Shown piece after piece: positions 51,088-58,266 of a stretch of DNA of 64,000 nt. Each line of letters starts with the position of its first letter. Position 1 is the stretch's first letter. The notes under the pieces were generated by a model that worked only from the letters and a program-made list of their open reading frames with translations, made no database searches and had not been told where the DNA came from. This DNA is from Ruminococcus sp. Its GTDB lineage: Bacteria; Bacillota; Clostridia; Oscillospirales; Acutalibacteraceae. The translations under genes and the position numbers were made by a program. Location: NCBI GenBank assembly GCA_017457155.1, contig JAFTHZ010000015.1:62001-126000 (forward strand), read 5' to 3'.

Positions 51088-52050
51088 ATGAAGATTTCTG
51101 TACTTGGCTGCGGAAGATGGGGCAGCTGTATTGCGTGGTATCTGGACAAGACAGGACACGAGGTGCTCTCCTCGGGTCTTGAAAATGCACCTGAATTTAT
51201 CACACTGAAAGAAACAAGAAAGAACGACTACCTGGAGTTTCCCCAGAGCATAGAGCTCAGTTCTGACCTGGAATATGCAGTAAACAGAGCCGAGGTAATA
51301 ATTATCTCCATATCCGCTCAGCATCTCCGTGAATATATGGCTGACATCTCCAAATACAATTTGGACGGCAAGATCATCGTCCTGTGTATGAAGGGTGTAG
51401 AGGTTACCACAGGAGCCAGACTCAGTGAGGTTGTGGGAGATTTTGTGGACGAAGAAAAAACACCCATAGCAGTATGGGTCGGTCCCGGCCATCCTCAGGA
51501 TTTTGTCAAGGGTATTCCCAACTGTATGGTTATCGACAGTAAGAACGAAGAGGTAAAGAACTTGCTTTGCAGGGAGCTTTCCAGCTCACTCATCAGAATG
51601 TACATCGGTAACGACTTCCTCGGAAGCGAGATCGGCGCTGCTGCAAAGAATGTTGTCGGCATTGTTGCAGGTATGCTGGACGGTATGAACTATCAATCTA
51701 TGAAGGGTGCGCTCATGGCAAGAGGCACAAGAGAAATATCCAGACTTATCGAAGCCATGGGTGGCAATCCCCTGTCTTCATATGGTCTGTGTCACCTGGG
51801 AGACTATGAGGCAACACTCTTCTCCAAATGGAGCCACAACAGAATGTATGGAGAAAAATTCGTACAGGGTGACAAGTTCGACAAGCTTGCAGAGGGTGTT
51901 ATGACCACAAAAGCTCTGAAGAAACTGGCCGACAAATACAATGTGGATATGCCCATTGTATCCAATCTCTATGAGATGCTCTTTGAAGGCAAGTCCTTTG
52001 ACAAAGCACTGGAAGATCTTTTCGGAAGATCAGTCAAGCAGGAATTCTAA
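51088..52050 (+). CDS. gpsA: NAD(P)-dependent glycerol-3-phosphate dehydrogenase
   Basis: 320 aa. Rossmann motif VLGCGRWGSCIAWYL at the N-terminus (usual GAGSWGTA), then VWVGPGHPQDF and GSEIGAAAKNVVGIVAG with the catalytic Lys. It makes sn-glycerol-3-P for phospholipid synthesis. The first glycine-rich loop differs from the consensus but keeps G-x-G-x-x-G. The sequence ISAQHLREYM agrees with a GpsA-like branch. AGGAGAA precedes the ATG. Separated from the 6S-like RNA by 53 bp. Confidence 0.88.
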   Translation: MKISVLGCGRWGSCIAWYLDKTGHEVLSSGLENAPEFITLKETRKNDYLEFPQSIELSSDLEYAVNRAEVIIISISAQHLREYMADISKYNLDGKIIVLCMKGVEVTTGARLSEVVGDFVDEEKTPIAVWVGPGHPQDFVKGIPNCMVIDSKNEEVKNLLCRELSSSLIRMYIGNDFLGSEIGAAAKNVVGIVAGMLDGMNYQSMKGALMARGTREISRLIEAMGGNPLSSYGLCHLGDYEATLFSKWSHNRMYGEKFVQGDKFDKLAEGVMTTKALKKLADKYNVDMPIVSNLYEMLFEGKSFDKALEDLFGRSVKQEF

Positions 52051-52064
52051 ACATAAAACAAATC

Positions 52065-52106
52065 AAAAAACAGCCGGGAATTTCACTTCCCGGCTGTTTT
52101 GTTTTT
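52065..52106. terminator. bidirectional terminator between gpsA and the kinase gene
   Basis: AAAACAGCCGGGAA and TTCCCGGCTGTTTT form a 14-bp stem with a T-run on both strands. Confidence 0.9.
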
Positions 52107-52827
52107 ATAAGGCATCGCACAAATCCTTAACGGACTGATAACGTTCATCAGGAGAAATAGCTGTGCATTTCTTAATTACACGTCCAAGCTGTCCCGAAGG
52201 AATGATCTCGCAGGGATGATTACCTGTGATCATTACATTTAGAAGAATCCCCATAGAGTATATATCTGCCCGTGCATCAGAGCGAGCTGTACTGATAAGT
52301 TCGGGAGACACATAGCCTACGGTTCCCATGATCTCGGTGTCCTTTTTCTCGGGAGTGATATATCTGGAGGCATTAAAATCCAGAAGCACTACCCTGCCGT
52401 TTTTTGTAACAACAATATTCTCCGGTTTTATATCCCTATGAACAATGTTATTACTGTGAAGGAAATCGAGGGCGTTGCAGACTCCCCTCAATACAACTTT
52501 AGCACCTCTGACGCTATACCTGCCTGTTTCCATAACCTGAGCAATGGTCAGACCTTCGATGTATTCTTCCAGCACAATCTGACCATCCTTAAGATTTATG
52601 GTGTCATAAATCTCAGGCAGGTTGGGACATCTGTAGCCTGAGAGAAACTCATATATACCCGAATGCTCAGAAAGCTGATGCAAAACCATATCTCTGCCCA
52701 GGGTATTGTGTCTGAGCCTGAGGGTCTTGCAATTATTCTTATCGGAGAGTACACAGATAAGCTTATAGTTCTGAAATACTATTTTTAAATAGTCCTCACA
52801 AGTCATATCATACTTATCCATACTCAT
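52105..52827 (-). CDS. Ser/Thr protein kinase-like protein lacking the beta-3 lysine
   Basis: 240 aa kinase domain without other domains. The C-lobe is complete: IVHRDIKPENIVV (Asp132), LLDFNASRY (Asp150 with DFN), GTVGYVSPE and DIYSMGILL. The N-lobe is degenerate: the glycine loop reads LSDKNNCKTL and the ATP-binding lysine of VAIK/VLK is His50 (DMVLHQLS, codon CAT). It may be a pseudokinase or use another lysine. The start ATG 52827 overlaps the stop of the LRR protein gene (ATGA); ATG 52821 is possible. Third gene of the cassette. Confidence 0.85.
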   Translation of the reverse strand: MSMDKYDMTCEDYLKIVFQNYKLICVLSDKNNCKTLRLRHNTLGRDMVLHQLSEHSGIYEFLSGYRCPNLPEIYDTINLKDGQIVLEEYIEGLTIAQVMETGRYSVRGAKVVLRGVCNALDFLHSNNIVHRDIKPENIVVTKNGRVVLLDFNASRYITPEKKDTEIMGTVGYVSPELISTARSDARADIYSMGILLNVMITGNHPCEIIPSGQLGRVIKKCTAISPDERYQSVKDLCDAL

Positions 52828-53858
52828 ACCCCGCCATTCCAGTTTTTATATACAGCACCATAATAGGATGCAGAGTTTCTGTAGTATCGCAGATTACGAT
52901 CACTACAATCATATGCGCAATGAATAGTGAGGGTACCTGACCTTTGGGATGGGTCAACAAAAGCAGTGGTCTCTGTATATATACTTTTGCCACAGAAATA
53001 TATATCCGTCAGGTTTGTACAATTATAGAATGCGTTTCCCCATATAGTCTTCACAGTTGATGGAACGATCACAGACTTCACAGTACTTGATACACCGCTG
53101 GCCGAAAAGCTCAGGGGCATAATGGCAATAACTGTTTTTCCGTCAATCTGAGAGGGAATCACATACCCTCCATCAGATGAGGTACCATTGACACCTGTGA
53201 TTACGATCTCATCTGACGAAAACGGATAATTCGCACTGAAATCGTCTCCACGCTGAGCCTGTCTGTATGTATAGGAAACATTGCTCGCAGAGGGTTTTTC
53301 CTCTGTCTGAGGGGAATCCTGCTGTATATTCTCCTGAGGTTTTGTGGTAATTGCAGGTGTCTGGGAAGAGTTCTGGGAAGAGTTCTGAGAAGAGTTCTGG
53401 GAAGAGTTCTGGGGAGTATCAGCCTGAGGCACTTTGTTCTCCTGCTGCGGATTCACGGTCGCACCTTCTGTGACCTCGGGGTTATTGTGAGCATTGAAGT
53501 CTGCCTGCGAATCGGCACTCCCGATCAGAGATGACTCGGGGTCGTATATGGTTATATCCTTGTCAAGAGAATCATCCGATATATGTGTATCTGAAACAAC
53601 ATTTGATACTATAGTCTCATCCTGAGTAGCAGAAGCGGAATCAGGTGCACTGCCTGTGCAAGATAAACGAAGTAGGAGAAAAACACCTAAAACAAGGAGT
53701 AAAATCAAAAGCACCGCAGCAGACAGGATAACAGGAAAACGCCTTTTGCCTTTGCTGATATCAGGAACATTCTTTTTTTCCTCAAGAGAGCTCATACAGT
53801 AAAGGCAAAACACCGCATTATCCTCTATCTGTGCTTTGCAAAAGGGACATTTCTTCAT
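52824..53858 (-). CDS. Zinc-ribbon, single-TM, leucine-rich-repeat protein
   Basis: 344 aa. An N-terminal zinc ribbon (CPFC 4-7, CLYC 18-21), a basic stretch, one membrane helix (about 42-66), a Ser/Thr/Gln/Asn-rich linker with four SQNS units, and a BspA-type LRR_5 region (about 220-300; VIPSTVKTIWGNAFYNCTNL). Topology predicts a cytosolic ribbon and an outside repeat domain, so it could be a sensor or adhesin linked to the kinase. AGGTGAAAAT precedes the ATG, and only 8 bp separate it from the HTH gene. Function unknown. Confidence 0.75.
   Translation of the reverse strand: MKKCPFCKAQIEDNAVFCLYCMSSLEEKKNVPDISKGKRRFPVILSAAVLLILLLVLGVFLLLRLSCTGSAPDSASATQDETIVSNVVSDTHISDDSLDKDITIYDPESSLIGSADSQADFNAHNNPEVTEGATVNPQQENKVPQADTPQNSSQNSSQNSSQNSSQTPAITTKPQENIQQDSPQTEEKPSASNVSYTYRQAQRGDDFSANYPFSSDEIVITGVNGTSSDGGYVIPSQIDGKTVIAIMPLSFSASGVSSTVKSVIVPSTVKTIWGNAFYNCTNLTDIYFCGKSIYTETTAFVDPSQRSGTLTIHCAYDCSDRNLRYYRNSASYYGAVYKNWNGGV
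53362..53412. repeat. 12-bp tandem repeat in the LRR gene linker
   Basis: GGGAAGAGTTCT repeats about four times with one variant (GAGAAGAGTTCT). It codes for SQNS units in the linker. Confidence 0.85.
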
Positions 53859-53866
53859 ATTTTCAC

Positions 53867-54289
53867 CTAGCCGAGGGTCTCAAATCCGTAATCATAAAGA
53901 AGCTCGTTGATCTGAGGCACAGTAAGATTGTTGCATACTCCGTAAATCACAATGCTGTCAAAAGGAAGTTTGACATAAAGCTGAGGGTACCCAGCACTTC
54001 TGAGCAGAGTCTGCACCTGCTGCAGATTCAGCCTCATGCCGATACATAAGGAAAGGAGCTTCTTACGCTCGGGCACACGGACTCCCGAAAAAATCTGATA
54101 TGCATAAACCTCTGAAAGCTCGGAATCACGAATAACCTGAGATTTCTTCAGATTGCTCTCACAAAGAATCTGTGCAAGCAAATCAGAAAGAGAGTCAGAA
54201 ACCATATACTCCTTGTTCTCAGAGTAAAATGTCCTGAAATTCTCACAAAGTCCCAATTCCTCGATTATCTTTCCCGTATCCTTGACCAT
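53867..54289 (-). CDS. HTH (XRE-like) protein heading the kinase cassette
   Basis: 140 aa. A lambda-repressor-like helix-turn-helix is suggested at about 45-75: ESNLKKSQVIRDSELSEVYAYQIF and GVRVPERKKLLSLC. The tail has helical repeats with LNLQQVQTLLRSAGYP, NLTVPQINELLYDYGFETL. I recall this repeat-plus-HTH arrangement from clostridial proteins next to Ser/Thr kinases, but a search is needed. ATG 54289 has AAGAGGTGG 4 nt upstream. It probably binds the divergent region that holds two inverted repeats. Confidence 0.7.
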   Translation of the reverse strand: MVKDTGKIIEELGLCENFRTFYSENKEYMVSDSLSDLLAQILCESNLKKSQVIRDSELSEVYAYQIFSGVRVPERKKLLSLCIGMRLNLQQVQTLLRSAGYPQLYVKLPFDSIVIYGVCNNLTVPQINELLYDYGFETLG

Positions 54290-54335
54290 TTTACCACCTC
54301 TTGTGTACGTTTCTACATAAGCATACCACAAAATA

Positions 54336-54364
54336 ATTATAAAAACAACTATGCTATCAGCATA
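54336..54364 (-). promoter_or_regulatory. promoter of the HTH cassette with a palindrome over -35
   Basis: On the - strand TATAAT is at 54336-54341. The -35 position (54359-54364) lacks a consensus and lies in the perfect palindrome TATGCT-ATC-AGCATA (54350-54364). This suggests control by a bound protein. Confidence 0.45.
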
Positions 54365-54369
54365 GGACT

Positions 54370-54403
54370 TTGTTATCTTTGAGGATTATAATTTAGATAA
54401 CAA
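54370..54403. promoter_or_regulatory. 9-bp inverted repeat around the -10 of the divergent gene
   Basis: TTGTTATCT (54370-54378) and AGATAACAA (54395-54403) are exact reverse complements, 16 bp apart. They flank TATAAT at 54387-54392. A likely operator for the HTH protein or another regulator. No T-run follows, so it is not a terminator. Confidence 0.6.
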
Positions 54404-54426
54404 ATAGAAAGAAAGGGGCCCATATT

Positions 54427-55122
54427 ATGACACACAACAATACCGGAAACAATGAACAAAATAATATGATACGAGAAGCAAAACAAGAATTAATTGAAAA
54501 TAATGTATCAGAGGTTGCAACAAGCCAAAGAAAATCTAACAGAATTGTGAAACTTGTGCTGACTGCTATTGCTGTTATAATTTTCATACCTCTTCCCTTC
54601 TACGGCAAGCTTCTGTTTCTTCAATACGCACCGCTGATTATAGCAATTATTTTCTTTTTATTGTCAAGCTTTTTCAACAGCGGAAAAGATTCAAGCAATG
54701 CCAATTCAGAAGAAAACAGACGCCTAATAACAGCCGTTGAAAAGAAGCCCGGAAATGAAACAAAACTTAAACTATATTACCTATGGGAAGGCATCGTACT
54801 GATTACACAGGTTGTTGTCGTTATACTGCTGACTATATTTGCTGATGGCGGGTTCTTTAATAAAATAACAACATTTTTTGTTTCTGCAATTATGGGTCTG
54901 ATATGTTACACAGTACTCACAGGACAAGCACATGCAACCACAACTAAGGGTAAACCAAAGAAGGACAAGAACGGACAAACCAGCTTCGAAAAAACCATAT
55001 TCCCCAATAAGGACAGAGAATATGTAGTTGAAACAAACACATACAGAGACGAAAATGGAAATCATTATGATTTAAATGGTGTTCCTGTTCCTACCCCTGT
55101 AAATATAAACATCAAGAAATAA
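54427..55122 (+). CDS. Unknown membrane protein divergent from the HTH cassette
   Basis: 231 aa. A hydrophilic N-terminus (1-35), a pair of hydrophobic segments (about 40-80), a charged loop (80-115), another hydrophobic pair (about 118-158), and a basic-to-polar C-terminal tail with YRDENGNHYDLNG. No family recognised. It shares the 137-bp intergenic region with the HTH gene, so it may be co-regulated. GAAAGGGG precedes the ATG. Confidence 0.7.
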   Translation: MTHNNTGNNEQNNMIREAKQELIENNVSEVATSQRKSNRIVKLVLTAIAVIIFIPLPFYGKLLFLQYAPLIIAIIFFLLSSFFNSGKDSSNANSEENRRLITAVEKKPGNETKLKLYYLWEGIVLITQVVVVILLTIFADGGFFNKITTFFVSAIMGLICYTVLTGQAHATTTKGKPKKDKNGQTSFEKTIFPNKDREYVVETNTYRDENGNHYDLNGVPVPTPVNINIKK

Positions 55123-55167: not shown

Positions 55168-55206
55168 AAAAGGCGGTACAGCAAAAAGCTGTATCGCCTT
55201 GTTTTA
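55168..55206. terminator. bidirectional terminator between the membrane-protein gene and argF
   Basis: AAGGCGGTACAGC and GCTGTATCGCCTT pair with one mismatch around AAAAA; T-rich tracts on both strands. Confidence 0.85.
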
Positions 55207-55217
55207 TTACATAAAGA

Positions 55218-56225
55218 TTAATTGTTGATCATTGTGGCCGCGAGAACTGCCTTGATGGTGTGCATACGGTTCTCTGCCTCGTCAAATACGATGGACTGCT
55301 CTGATTCGAACACCTCATCGGTAACCTCAAGTGCATCAAGTCCGAACTGCTCTCCTACCTGCTTGCCTACACCAGTGTTCAGGTCGTGGAATGCAGGCAA
55401 ACAGTGCATAAACACTGCGTCGGGACGTGCACCCTCCATGAGGGTTTTGTTGACCTGATAAGGAAGCAGGTCCGAAATACGCTCCTGCCATACCTGTGCA
55501 GGCTCACCCATTGATACCCATACATCAGTATAGATAACGTGTGCGTTCTCAACTGCCTTCTTGGGTTCTGTCTCAAACTTGAGTGTGGCGCCTGTCTCCT
55601 TTGCGATTTCCTGACACTGAGCGATGAGCTCCTTGTTGGGGAAATACTTCTCGGGTGCACAAGCAGTGAAAGACATACCCATCTTTGCACAACCTACCAT
55701 AAGGGAGTTGCCCATATTGTAGCGAGCATCACCCATATAGACGAAGTTGATACCCTCAAGGGTGCCAAACTTCTCTTTGATTGTGAGGAAATCGGCCAGA
55801 ATCTGTGTGGGATGGAACTCGTTGGTGAGACCATTGAACACGGGAACTCCAGCCTTCTCGCTAAGCTCTTCGACTATCTCCTGACCAAAACCACGATACT
55901 CGATTCCGTCGTACATTCTGCCCAGAACACGAGCTGTGTCAGCTATGCTCTCCTTCTTGCCCATCTGGGATGCATCGGGATCAAGATATGTTGTGCCCAT
56001 TCCCAGATCATGAGCTGCAACCTCAAAGGCACAGCGGGTACGGGTGCTGGTCTTCTCGAATACAAGAGCAATATTCTTGCCCTCACAAAGCTTGTGAGGA
56101 ATACCAGCCTTCTTCTGAGTCTTAAGAAGTGCTGCCAGATCGATTAAAGAAGAAATCTCTTCCGAAGTAAAATCCAAAAGCTTCAGAAAGCTTTTGTTCT
56201 TTAAGTTCTTAAGTGTGTTTTCCAT
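55218..56225 (-). CDS. argF: Ornithine carbamoyltransferase
   Basis: 335 aa. The carbamoyl phosphate site [25 protein letters not shown] and the ornithine-site HCLPAFHD are diagnostic. It converts ornithine and carbamoyl phosphate to citrulline. It is the last gene of the arg operon, 3 bp after argD. GGAGG precedes the ATG. Anabolic versus catabolic (ArcB) use is settled by context: all neighbours are biosynthetic. Confidence 0.96.
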
Positions 56226-56228
56226 ATA

Positions 56229-57398
56229 TTATGCCTCCGTTTTACATGCGGTTTTTATATTCTCAACTGCCTGCTTCAGAGTATCCCAGGGAATATTGAG
56301 AGCAGGAAGTAAACGAAGTTTTGTTTTTGCTTTAATAACAAGCAGACCATCAGCCATACAACGGTTGACAATCTCATCCACAGGCTTCACTGTGGTGATA
56401 CCAAGCATAAGTCCCATTCCGTCGATGGAGACTACGCCGTCAGCAGATGAAAGCTCGCTGCGGATGTACTCTGCCTTCTCCTTGACCTGAGCAAATAGTT
56501 CATCATCCAGACGACTAAGAATACTGAGAGCACCTGCACAACAGATGGGATTGCCACCAAAGGTGGAGCCGTGGTCACCGGGTACGAAGACCTCAGAAAG
56601 CTTATCTGAGAGCATGGTTGCACCAAGAGGAAGGCCTCCTGCAAGTCCCTTGGCGGTTGAAATGATATCAGGGGTAACACCGTAATTCATATAGGCATAG
56701 AGGGCACCTGTGCGGCCGTTGCCTGTCTGTACTTCGTCAGCGATGGTGACAATGTCATTCTCTGCACAAAGGCTGAAGATTGCATCCACAAACTCCTTGC
56801 TGAGAGGTGTGACTCCCCCCTCACCCTGTACAAACTCGAACATGATTGCGGCAACCTTGTTGTCTTTTACCTTGTTTTTCAGGTCCTCAATATTATTGGC
56901 CTCGACATAGTCAAAGCCCTCTGTCAGAGGCAGAAACTCATTGTGAAAGGTATCCTGTCCTGTAGCAGCAAGGGTTGTGATAGTTCTGCCGTGAAAGCTG
57001 TTTCTGAGGGTGAGAATGGTAAAATAGTCATTGCCACGTCTGGCAGCAGCATACTTACGGGCTGCCTTAATGGCACACTCATTGGCCTCTGCACCTGAAT
57101 TTGAAAAGAACACCTTGCTCATTCCTGTGCGTTGACACAGAAGCTCGGCGAGCTTCGCACAAGGCTCAGTAAAGTAAAGATTGGATGTATGAGAAAGGGT
57201 GCTTGCCTGAGAAGCAACAGCCTGAGCCCATACATCATCTGAATAGCCAAAAGTGTTAACTGCTATACCCGTGGACATATCAATGTATTCTCTGCCATTC
57301 TCGTCATAAGCCAAAGAGCCCTTTCCCCTTGTGATAGTCAAAGGAAAACGGCCGTAGGTATGAGCTATATATTTACTATCAAGTTCTTTAACATTCAT
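56229..57398 (-). CDS. argD: Acetylornithine aminotransferase
   Basis: 389 aa class III aminotransferase: FFSNSGAEANECAIKAAR, ADEVQTGNGRTG and the PLP lysine in STAKGLAGGLPLGA. It converts N-acetylglutamate semialdehyde to N-acetylornithine. The ATG at 57398 lies inside the end of argB (11-bp overlap) behind GGAGG; the GTG further upstream (57437) is rejected. Confidence 0.95.
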   Translation of the reverse strand: MNVKELDSKYIAHTYGRFPLTITRGKGSLAYDENGREYIDMSTGIAVNTFGYSDDVWAQAVASQASTLSHTSNLYFTEPCAKLAELLCQRTGMSKVFFSNSGAEANECAIKAARKYAAARRGNDYFTILTLRNSFHGRTITTLAATGQDTFHNEFLPLTEGFDYVEANNIEDLKNKVKDNKVAAIMFEFVQGEGGVTPLSKEFVDAIFSLCAENDIVTIADEVQTGNGRTGALYAYMNYGVTPDIISTAKGLAGGLPLGATMLSDKLSEVFVPGDHGSTFGGNPICCAGALSILSRLDDELFAQVKEKAEYIRSELSSADGVVSIDGMGLMLGITTVKPVDEIVNRCMADGLLVIKAKTKLRLLPALNIPWDTLKQAVENIKTACKTEA

Positions 57399-58266
57399 CG
57401 GAAAAATCCTCCGCAACCATAGTACCTGCACCCTCATTGGTGAGAGTCTCGATAAGCAGAGAGTGGTGGACTCTGCCGTCCATAATAATAACTCGTTTTA
57501 CTCCGCGGGCTATAGCCTCAAGACAACACTCAACCTTGGGTATCATACCACCGGAGATTGTTCCGTCGCGGAAGAGTCCTACTGCGGACTTTGTATCAAT
57601 AGCGGTGATGAGAGTTGAGGGATCGTCCTTATCACGCAGGATGCCTGCGATATCGGTCATGGTGATAAGGCGCTCTGCCTTCAGCTCACCTGCAATATAT
57701 GCAGCAGCTGAGTCAGCATTGATATTATAAACGTTGCCCTCATCGTCACATGCAACAGTGGAAACAATGGGAATATATCCGTTATCAAGCAGATCGTTGA
57801 TGGGCTCGACGTTGACTTCGGTAATACGACCCACATAACCAAGACGCTCGTCCTTCTGAACAGCTTTGATCATCTTGCCATCGATACCTGAGATACCCAT
57901 AGCTTTTCCGCCCTTGGTCTGGATAAGGTTGACAAGACTCTTGTTGATCTTGCCCGCAAGAACCATCTGAACAATATCGATGGTCTCCTTATCGGTTACA
58001 CGCAGGCCATCGACCCATTCTGTCTCCTTGCCCATCTGCTTCAGGGTGTCGGTAATCTCGGGGCCGCCGCCGTGAACGAGGACTACCTTGACACCGATAA
58101 GCCACAGCAGGACTATATCCTGCATAACTTCCTGCTTCAGCTCCTCGCTGACCATGGCGTTTCCGCCGTATTTGACTACAACTACTTTTCCGTTGTATTT
58201 CTGAATGTAAGGCAGAGCGTGAGTCAGAACTTCTGCACGCTGTGCGTTAGTAATATTTAAAGACAT
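57388..58266 (-). CDS. argB: N-acetylglutamate kinase
   Basis: 292 aa amino acid kinase: VVKYGGNAM, LVHGGGPEI and the arginine-type N-terminal helix. It phosphorylates N-acetylglutamate. Its N-terminal extension (about 25 aa) fits the hexameric, arginine-inhibited type. Second base of the pathway control next to ArgR-like boxes. Confidence 0.95.
   Translation of the reverse strand: MSLNITNAQRAEVLTHALPYIQKYNGKVVVVKYGGNAMVSEELKQEVMQDIVLLWLIGVKVVLVHGGGPEITDTLKQMGKETEWVDGLRVTDKETIDIVQMVLAGKINKSLVNLIQTKGGKAMGISGIDGKMIKAVQKDERLGYVGRITEVNVEPINDLLDNGYIPIVSTVACDDEGNVYNINADSAAAYIAGELKAERLITMTDIAGILRDKDDPSTLITAIDTKSAVGLFRDGTISGGMIPKVECCLEAIARGVKRVIIMDGRVHHSLLIETLTNEGAGTMVAEDFSDEC

Follow-up and report, generated by a model that had tools for sequence, protein, structure and literature searches.

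A candidate envelope-sensing switch formed by a pseudokinase-like protein and a divergent XRE-like regulator in Ruminococcus sp.

A 64,000-nucleotide (nt) stretch of Ruminococcus sp. contig JAFTHZ010000015.1 (assembly GCA_017457155.1, positions 62,001 to 126,000; hereafter the window, numbered from its first letter) contains an operon for a helix-turn-helix (HTH) protein, a zinc-ribbon protein with one transmembrane (TM) segment and a leucine-rich repeat (LRR) ectodomain, and a kinase-like protein. Do these genes belong to one signalling system, and what would that system control? A sequence-only reading of the window had proposed an outside-in path in which the LRR senses, the kinase relays and the HTH protein binds operators upstream of its own gene. 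We compared the locus with related genomes and consider it on balance probable that the operon encodes a self-contained transmembrane signalling switch, an envelope-sensing pseudokinase paired with an XRE-like regulator. Among open-licence PMC papers we found no description of the cassette.

Conservation of the three-gene cassette

An open reading frame (ORF) and coordinate check placed the HTH, zinc-ribbon/TM/LRR and kinase-like genes in that order on the minus strand (Table 1), with 8 bp between the first two, a 4-bp ATGA overlap between the last two and a terminator closing the operon; coordinates, order, gap and overlap had been given correctly by the sequence-only reading. The HTH ORF reaches a TTG at 54331, and the tblastn matches of relatives begin at the ATG at 54289. 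We searched 59 relatives (own genome counted; its assembly is 1.64 Mb in 40 contigs) and obtained HTH protein matches in 23 at E<=1e-3 and near-full-length matches (E<1e-12) in 12. In all 11 other genomes of those 12, a kinase of the same family was located <=4 kb from the HTH gene.

Across the class the HTH profile was matched in 145 of 391 genomes, by short proteins of ~140 amino acids (aa) and, more weakly, by proteins of ~345 aa. A wider-class set of 60 stretches was taken over the strongest HTH places outside the window (E<=2.1e-23). An HTH gene was called in 59 of them and a kinase lay within two genes of it in 51, on the opposite strand in 42 and on the same strand in nine; one canonical kinase, L113, stays in this count and in the wider-class TM and motif tallies given below. 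A second set, the named loci, comprised the best 80 of 113 loci, mostly metagenome-assembled genomes of Oscillospiraceae or Clostridia from ruminants and other animals. Two loci were excluded from our counts, L128 because the script called no HTH ORF in it and L151 because only 2 nt upstream were available. Of the 80 named loci, 50 had the order HTH, zinc-ribbon/TM, kinase by script and 54 after checking four more (L145, with a second HTH copy, and L161, L164 and L174, where the chosen start had hidden the ribbon), and a kinase was present somewhere in the stretch at 75. Clustering of the flanking genes, the three cassette genes apart, placed no family in more than 14 of 81 loci, and the cassette therefore appears as a unit amid differing surroundings. 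Judged by gene order, the three genes are kept together. The sequence-only reading had looked to co-occurrence in related genomes, and both sets agree with it. In Listeria innocua a 151-aa HTH homologue is divergent from a 383-aa kinase with a DFD motif and three predicted TM segments, and the HTH-kinase pair therefore reaches the Bacilli. A phage or plasmid origin was set aside; HTH relatives in six phage and five plasmid records, most of them Listeria, had <60% identity, and the places inspected were those of L. innocua and R. albus.

A defence or selfish cassette, anti-phage or toxin-antitoxin-like and spreading between genomes, could also be patchily distributed in this way, with a full-length HTH protein in 12 of the 59 relatives, unrelated flanks and alternative small XRE-like neighbours, and the kinase does match the PD-T4-6 models of PADLOC. 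However, these are whole-kinase models matched by any generic kinase, and we took the matches as generic kinase similarity. PADLOC gave the HTH protein no match and the other two proteins weak ones, the genes on the output side are largely membrane or surface genes, and tRNA genes occurred in only 2 of 37 loci scanned. We hold this explanation to be very improbable.

The operator palindrome and its two putative promoters

We analyzed the sequence <=300 nt upstream of each HTH start in the named loci and identified a palindrome in 68 of 80 regions, in the form TATGC-N5-GCATA in 63 and TAAGC-N5-GCTTA in five. Shuffled sequences gave a mean of 0.07 (maximum 1 in 200 rounds) and random 300-nt segments of the same loci a mean of 2.6 (maximum 7). 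The fact that both arms change symmetrically in the five regions argues for recognition by a protein dimer. The sequence-only reading had placed two operators at 54350-54403. The first (54350-54364) is the conserved palindrome, whereas the second, an inverted repeat at 54369-54404, was present in none of the 79 other upstream regions and was rejected as a conserved operator. Inverted repeats of 8 bp or longer occurred in the corresponding region at 7 of 72 loci including the window, and their sequences differ except between L195 and L197. Second, non-shared repeats around the outward -10 box were seen in the window, L195, L197, L184, L155 and L182 and are perhaps sites of another local regulator.

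The extended site TATGCTGNCAGCATA was present in 29 of 31 cassette genomes, as one site in 28 and as two sites 636 bp apart in one, and its backward control in none of the 31; these genomes had for the most part been selected for having the site at their loci. The pattern AGTCYTATGCNNNNNGCATA was found in 34 of 47 cassette genomes as compared to 1 of 59 relatives, that one being the window's own genome, and its backward control gave one match in the relatives search and none in the 47 cassette genomes. When one mismatch was allowed, 45 of 48 genomes were matched, with 69 matches listed as against 12 for the backward control. By these searches one palindrome goes with the close HTH family and is nearly confined to genomes that have the close HTH protein. 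A global-regulator site is disfavoured, with cassette genomes having about one copy each and the 58 other relatives none. The looser pattern matched the own genome a second time (C18:4044), within an ORF of 369 aa, and this match was treated as chance. At L321 (G448:C23:29000-35000) two tandem HTH genes, with palindromes upstream of each, are followed by one zinc-ribbon/kinase pair.

Is the palindrome indeed a site for the HTH protein? It may be bound by another protein or act as RNA, the link to the HTH protein being indirect. Small XRE-like genes of three kinds (recognised by reading) are located one or two genes upstream of the HTH gene in 14, 13 and 9 of 81 loci, and our hairpin scan listed the palindrome as terminator-like. 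On the other hand, the window has the palindrome and no small XRE gene in its cassette, and the HTH protein is the only DNA-binding-like protein common to the loci. In 37 of 63 palindromes the dyad symmetry includes the central bases, which could not pair in an RNA loop, and this together with the position before the -35 box disfavours an RNA hairpin. Indirect linkage of either kind seems quite improbable to us.

In 49 of 72 loci a TATAAT-like box (at most one mismatch) on the outward side starts precisely 22 nt away from the palindrome, and no other offset from 5 to 44 was seen in more than two loci. Of 68 regions, 26 have a TTG box on the HTH side that is one base away from the palindrome and has a 17-nt spacer; a -10 box of looser definition was found on that side at 24 nt in 34 of 72 loci. 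By sequence and geometry a promoter-like element lies at a fixed distance on either side of the palindrome, one of them for the operon and the other directed outward. Neither putative promoter of the window was among the consensus hits of the promoter scan.

In the window 137 bp separate the HTH start from that of a divergent membrane gene, at which the outward element aims. The suggestion that this gene is the target of the system held in part: the outward promoter reads into it, but it was found in none of the 58 other relatives, was rejected as a conserved partner and occupies a variable slot. Its 231-aa product matched no family above cut-off. Elsewhere the slot holds LRR proteins (L180 and L190 by Pfam, L181 by similarity), a collagen-LRR protein (L165), a lipoprotein-like protein (L185) or membrane proteins (L178, L213, L218 and L219). 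Outward proteins starting MGF or MGL recur (L153, L157, L169, L174, L176, L186 and L196), and the five that were scanned had no Pfam match; a similar protein also occurs in an operon with a two-TM protein (L317:670-2845).

Exact extended sites were also identified away from the HTH promoter. Three in G482 and one in G490 were on contigs other than the cassette's, two in G484 were <=5 kb from the cassette, and G466 had a second site at the cassette itself. All six extra sites of G482, G484 and G490 were oriented as the outward promoter and faced other operons; the -10 box was at 22 nt in four, read TATAAC there in one and was poor in one. The facing genes encode a SipW-like signal peptidase and, after it, a protein whose signal is SipW-dependent; an S8 protease whose start resembles that of a lipoprotein; a small protein with weak similarity to TM2; uncharacterised proteins of a single operon, one with TM segments; a collagen-LRR protein; and an LRR protein of >1,000 aa. 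Envelope or secreted products face five of the six, as a plain count in a small sample.

These sites bear on a simpler explanation, that the HTH protein is a plain autoregulator setting the dose of its operon while the kinase-like protein and the zinc-ribbon/LRR protein serve some other purpose as a membrane complex, such as an assembly or secretion scaffold. In most cassette genomes the exact site occurs only at the cassette, the kinase is degenerate, and the pseudokinase EssB/YukC offers a precedent for a scaffold (PMC12599244). A plain autoregulator would however account poorly for the outward promoter and for the six extra sites at other operons, and the HTH and kinase genes stay paired at loci that lack a zinc-ribbon gene. 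We judge it fairly unlikely.

The kinase-like protein and its membrane partner

The window's kinase-like protein matched PF00069 with an E-value of 2.3e-33, aligned over residues 61-208 only. We aligned 75 kinases and found His130, Asp132, Lys134, Asn137 and Asp150 to be invariant. The beta3 Lys position, on the other hand, held Arg in 46, His in 20 (the window among them), Lys in eight and Asn in one. Position 58, which we take to be that of the alphaC Glu from the Pfam consensus and the alignment offset (the helix is short), was never Glu and held Ala, Val, Ile or Leu in 75 of 75. The third DFG position was Asn in 63 of 75, the window's DFN included, and Gly in one, and the place of the glycine loop held mostly an S-x-K-N stretch. 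A pattern search for the glycine loop also missed canonical controls and was not used. For comparison, 29 kinases were read from 30 loci of other genomes, and all 29 retained DFG and A[LIVM]K; they were mostly the best kinase match per genome and are thus biased to canonical kinases.

Among the 61 linked kinases of the named loci, 50 had DFN or DLN, one had DFG and none had A[LIVM]K. The 62 HTH-linked kinases of the wider class were more mixed, with DYD or DFD in 25 (DYD in 13), DFN or DLN in 11, a Gly-ending motif in 16 (DFG in 10, DYG in five, DLG in one) and A[LIVM]K in three. The N-lobe of the kinase is, by its motifs, degenerate and pseudokinase-like, and the protein is probably nucleotide-binding and weakly active or inactive. 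The sequence-only reading had recognised the kinase-like domain, which stands on the PF00069 match; its assumption of a phosphorelay does not stand, since such an N-lobe gives no warrant for one.

An active Ser/Thr kinase that phosphorylates the HTH protein, in a true phosphorelay with an unusual adenosine triphosphate (ATP) site, is unlikely in our view. The HxD motif, Lys134, Asn137 and the metal-binding Asp150 are invariant, and ATP binding has been argued for the similar DYD family (PMC12599244). Against this stand the rarity of the beta3 Lys, the absence of Glu at the presumed alphaC position and the single Gly at the end of the DFG motif.

The 'DYD' Ser/Thr pseudokinases of Firmicutes and Actinobacteria have Arg for the beta3 Lys and no alphaC Glu, and ATP binding has been modelled for them and they are described as families of unknown function (PMC12599244). 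The kinases of our set are likewise from Firmicutes, lack the alphaC Glu, retain HxD and mostly have Arg for Lys, and the HTH-linked kinases of the wider class share the DYD or DFD motif in the numbers given above and predicted TM segments in 50 of 62. Unlike that family, the window's kinase appears soluble, has DFN and has His at the beta3 position; the kinase domain takes up nearly all of its 240 aa, and a hydropathy script called no TM segment in it, whereas its partner protein has one. The window's kinase thus resembles the DYD group without its motif or membrane part. In the sections of the review consulted no HTH partner is named for the DYD family, and the words HTH, helix-turn-helix and zinc ribbon are absent from its text (PMC12599244).

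The zinc-ribbon slot was analyzed in 69 proteins, the window's and 68 homologues, at E<=0.001. LRR_5 matched 41 and Zn_Ribbon_1 matched 55, and DUF6273 and DUF5050 matched one each. In a comparison with BspA-type LRR surface proteins, the LRR that the sequence-only reading assigned to the window's own protein scored 24.4 bits with LRR_5, below the Pfam cut-off of 27.7. Mean pairwise identity was 63% in the ribbon and 25% in the ectodomain. At L084 and L177 this ribbon and the kinase are joined directly in one protein. Ten of the 20 long HTH-linked kinases were scanned and gave LRRs above the Pfam cut-off in L109, L137 and L142, a weaker LRR in L105 and a copper-amine-oxidase-N domain in L118; the kinase-TM-LRR proteins of L109, L137 and L142 sit beside the HTH gene. 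Because of these two kinds of fusion, the window's zinc-ribbon/LRR protein and soluble kinase look like the split form of a sensor kinase.

The HTH protein and the proposed switch

A Pfam search with the window's HTH protein alone gave no HTH family match. HTH_31 was matched by 32 of 81 family members at E<=0.1 (best E 2.6e-4), and the best PDB match of the family profile (E 0.013) was 3op9 (Pli0006), which we take to be an XRE-type HTH. The protein is likely, if not proven, to be a divergent XRE-like HTH. Its C-terminal extension is also found at the C-terminus of macrodomain proteins (~345 aa) that are common in the class. In one such protein of the own genome (L047:4496-5542, C34; Pfam Macro E 1.1e-38) the C-terminus aligned with the HTH protein over 110 columns with an hhalign probability of 98.6% (template of four proteins). 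Proteins with an HTH-like C-terminus at L014, L023 and L030 were assigned a macrodomain by reading only.

In the switch that we favour, the LRR or another ectodomain would sense something at the cell surface, and the cytosolic zinc ribbon would dock the kinase-like protein at the membrane. Docking is proposed because the ribbon and kinase are fused in two relatives and because elsewhere kinase, TM segment and LRR are one protein. The kinase-like protein would hold, release or modify the HTH protein, which as a dimer would bind the palindrome beside both -35 boxes and so set its own operon and the output gene, in the window putatively the membrane protein gene at 54427. Activation of the output promoter is favoured since the outward -35 is far from consensus; repression is possible.

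Several observations weigh against such a switch. No kinase was nearby at 8 of the 59 wider-class loci and none was present in the stretch examined at 5 of the 80 named loci, one of them at a contig end. In 33 of 72 palindrome loci the nearest upstream gene has the same direction as the HTH gene, and the outward element faces its 3' end. The extra sites were confined to 3 of 47 genomes, and two of the six were within 5 kb of the cassette. The HTH profile matched the small XRE neighbours of some cassettes only weakly (hhalign probability 8.6%). The palindrome preceded only 4 of 72 HTH genes in the wider set (L036, L083 twice and L084); the operator therefore appears to belong to the window's clade, and HTH-kinase linkage is possible without it.

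We compared the cassette with known systems. The window's kinase has a Pkinase C-lobe like the PASTA-type kinases (PrkC/PknB), and PknB was among its best PDB matches; unlike them it has no PASTA domain or TM segment, has lost the canonical VAIK Lys and DFG, and scored 129.9 with NF033483 (cut-off 450). Pfam and NCBIfam detected no histidine kinase or receiver domain in the four window proteins, and the layout is neither a textbook PASTA-kinase nor a two-component one, as the sequence-only reading had said. In AfsK-AfsR type systems a Ser/Thr kinase works with a transcription regulator. The cassette shares this pairing and differs in regulator, sensor and genetics, with a score of 41.2 against the AfsK model NF053615 (cut-off 1300). 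RsgI/SigI-type clostridial biosensors combine an exchangeable ectodomain, one TM segment and a cytosolic anchor in the control of surface genes. The cassette would work like them in this layout; no sigma factor or anti-sigma domain was found in the four window proteins by Pfam or NCBIfam. Plant LRR receptor-like kinases carry LRR ectodomain, TM segment and kinase domain in one protein, as do L109, L137 and L142; the chain order in the latter is kinase-TM-LRR, and we do not claim common descent.

More tentatively, and with less confidence than in the switch itself, we suggest a widespread Clostridia system reaching the Bacilli, in which a DYD/DFN pseudokinase may relay an exchangeable surface sensor to a dedicated XRE-like regulator and, in the window's clade, one bidirectional operator may control both its own operon and surface genes (LRR, collagen-like and SipW-linked). 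If true, this would be the first function for the DYD/DFN-type pseudokinase group, the signal perhaps passing through nucleotide-dependent binding rather than phosphotransfer, and would provide rumen and gut Oscillospiraceae with a route from surface sensing to surface-gene expression. The locus provides the pseudokinase with two partners, a regulator and a membrane protein, and with a DNA site and candidate output genes, which makes its role directly testable.

Table 1. Features of the cassette region in window coordinates
Feature	Position	Strand	Description
HTH gene	53867..54289	-	140 aa; likely divergent XRE-like regulator with C-terminal extension
Zinc-ribbon/TM/LRR gene	52824..53858	-	344 aa; ribbon CPFC...CLYC, TM, low-complexity linker, LRR ectodomain; presumed sensor
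Kinase-like gene	52105..52827	-	240 aa; HRD, KPEN and DFN present; beta3 Lys, alphaC Glu and Gly loop absent
Operator palindrome, conserved	54350..54364		TATGC-N5-GCATA
Putative operon promoter	54320..54348	-	TTGTTT, 17 nt, TATGCT; from sequence and geometry
Putative outward promoter	54364..54392	+	AGGACT, 17 nt, TATAAT; -10 starts 22 nt past the palindrome
Divergent membrane protein gene	54427..55122	+	231 aa; candidate output gene
Second inverted repeat	54369..54404		10-bp arms, 16-nt spacer, around the outward -10; not conserved
Bidirectional terminator-like hairpin at operon end	52067..52100		14 pairs; hairpin scan
Terminator-like hairpin 3' of divergent gene	55170..55200	+	hairpin scan

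The cassette is flanked by what we take, from reading, to be a glycerol-3-phosphate dehydrogenase-like gene (51088-52050) and arginine-synthesis-like genes (55218-58266). In nine loci of the named set (L143-L222) a gene for an 85-aa, helical-looking protein is divergent from the HTH gene. At L050, L051 and L052, distant relatives of the HTH protein adjoin proteins that we labelled von Willebrand A-like by reading.

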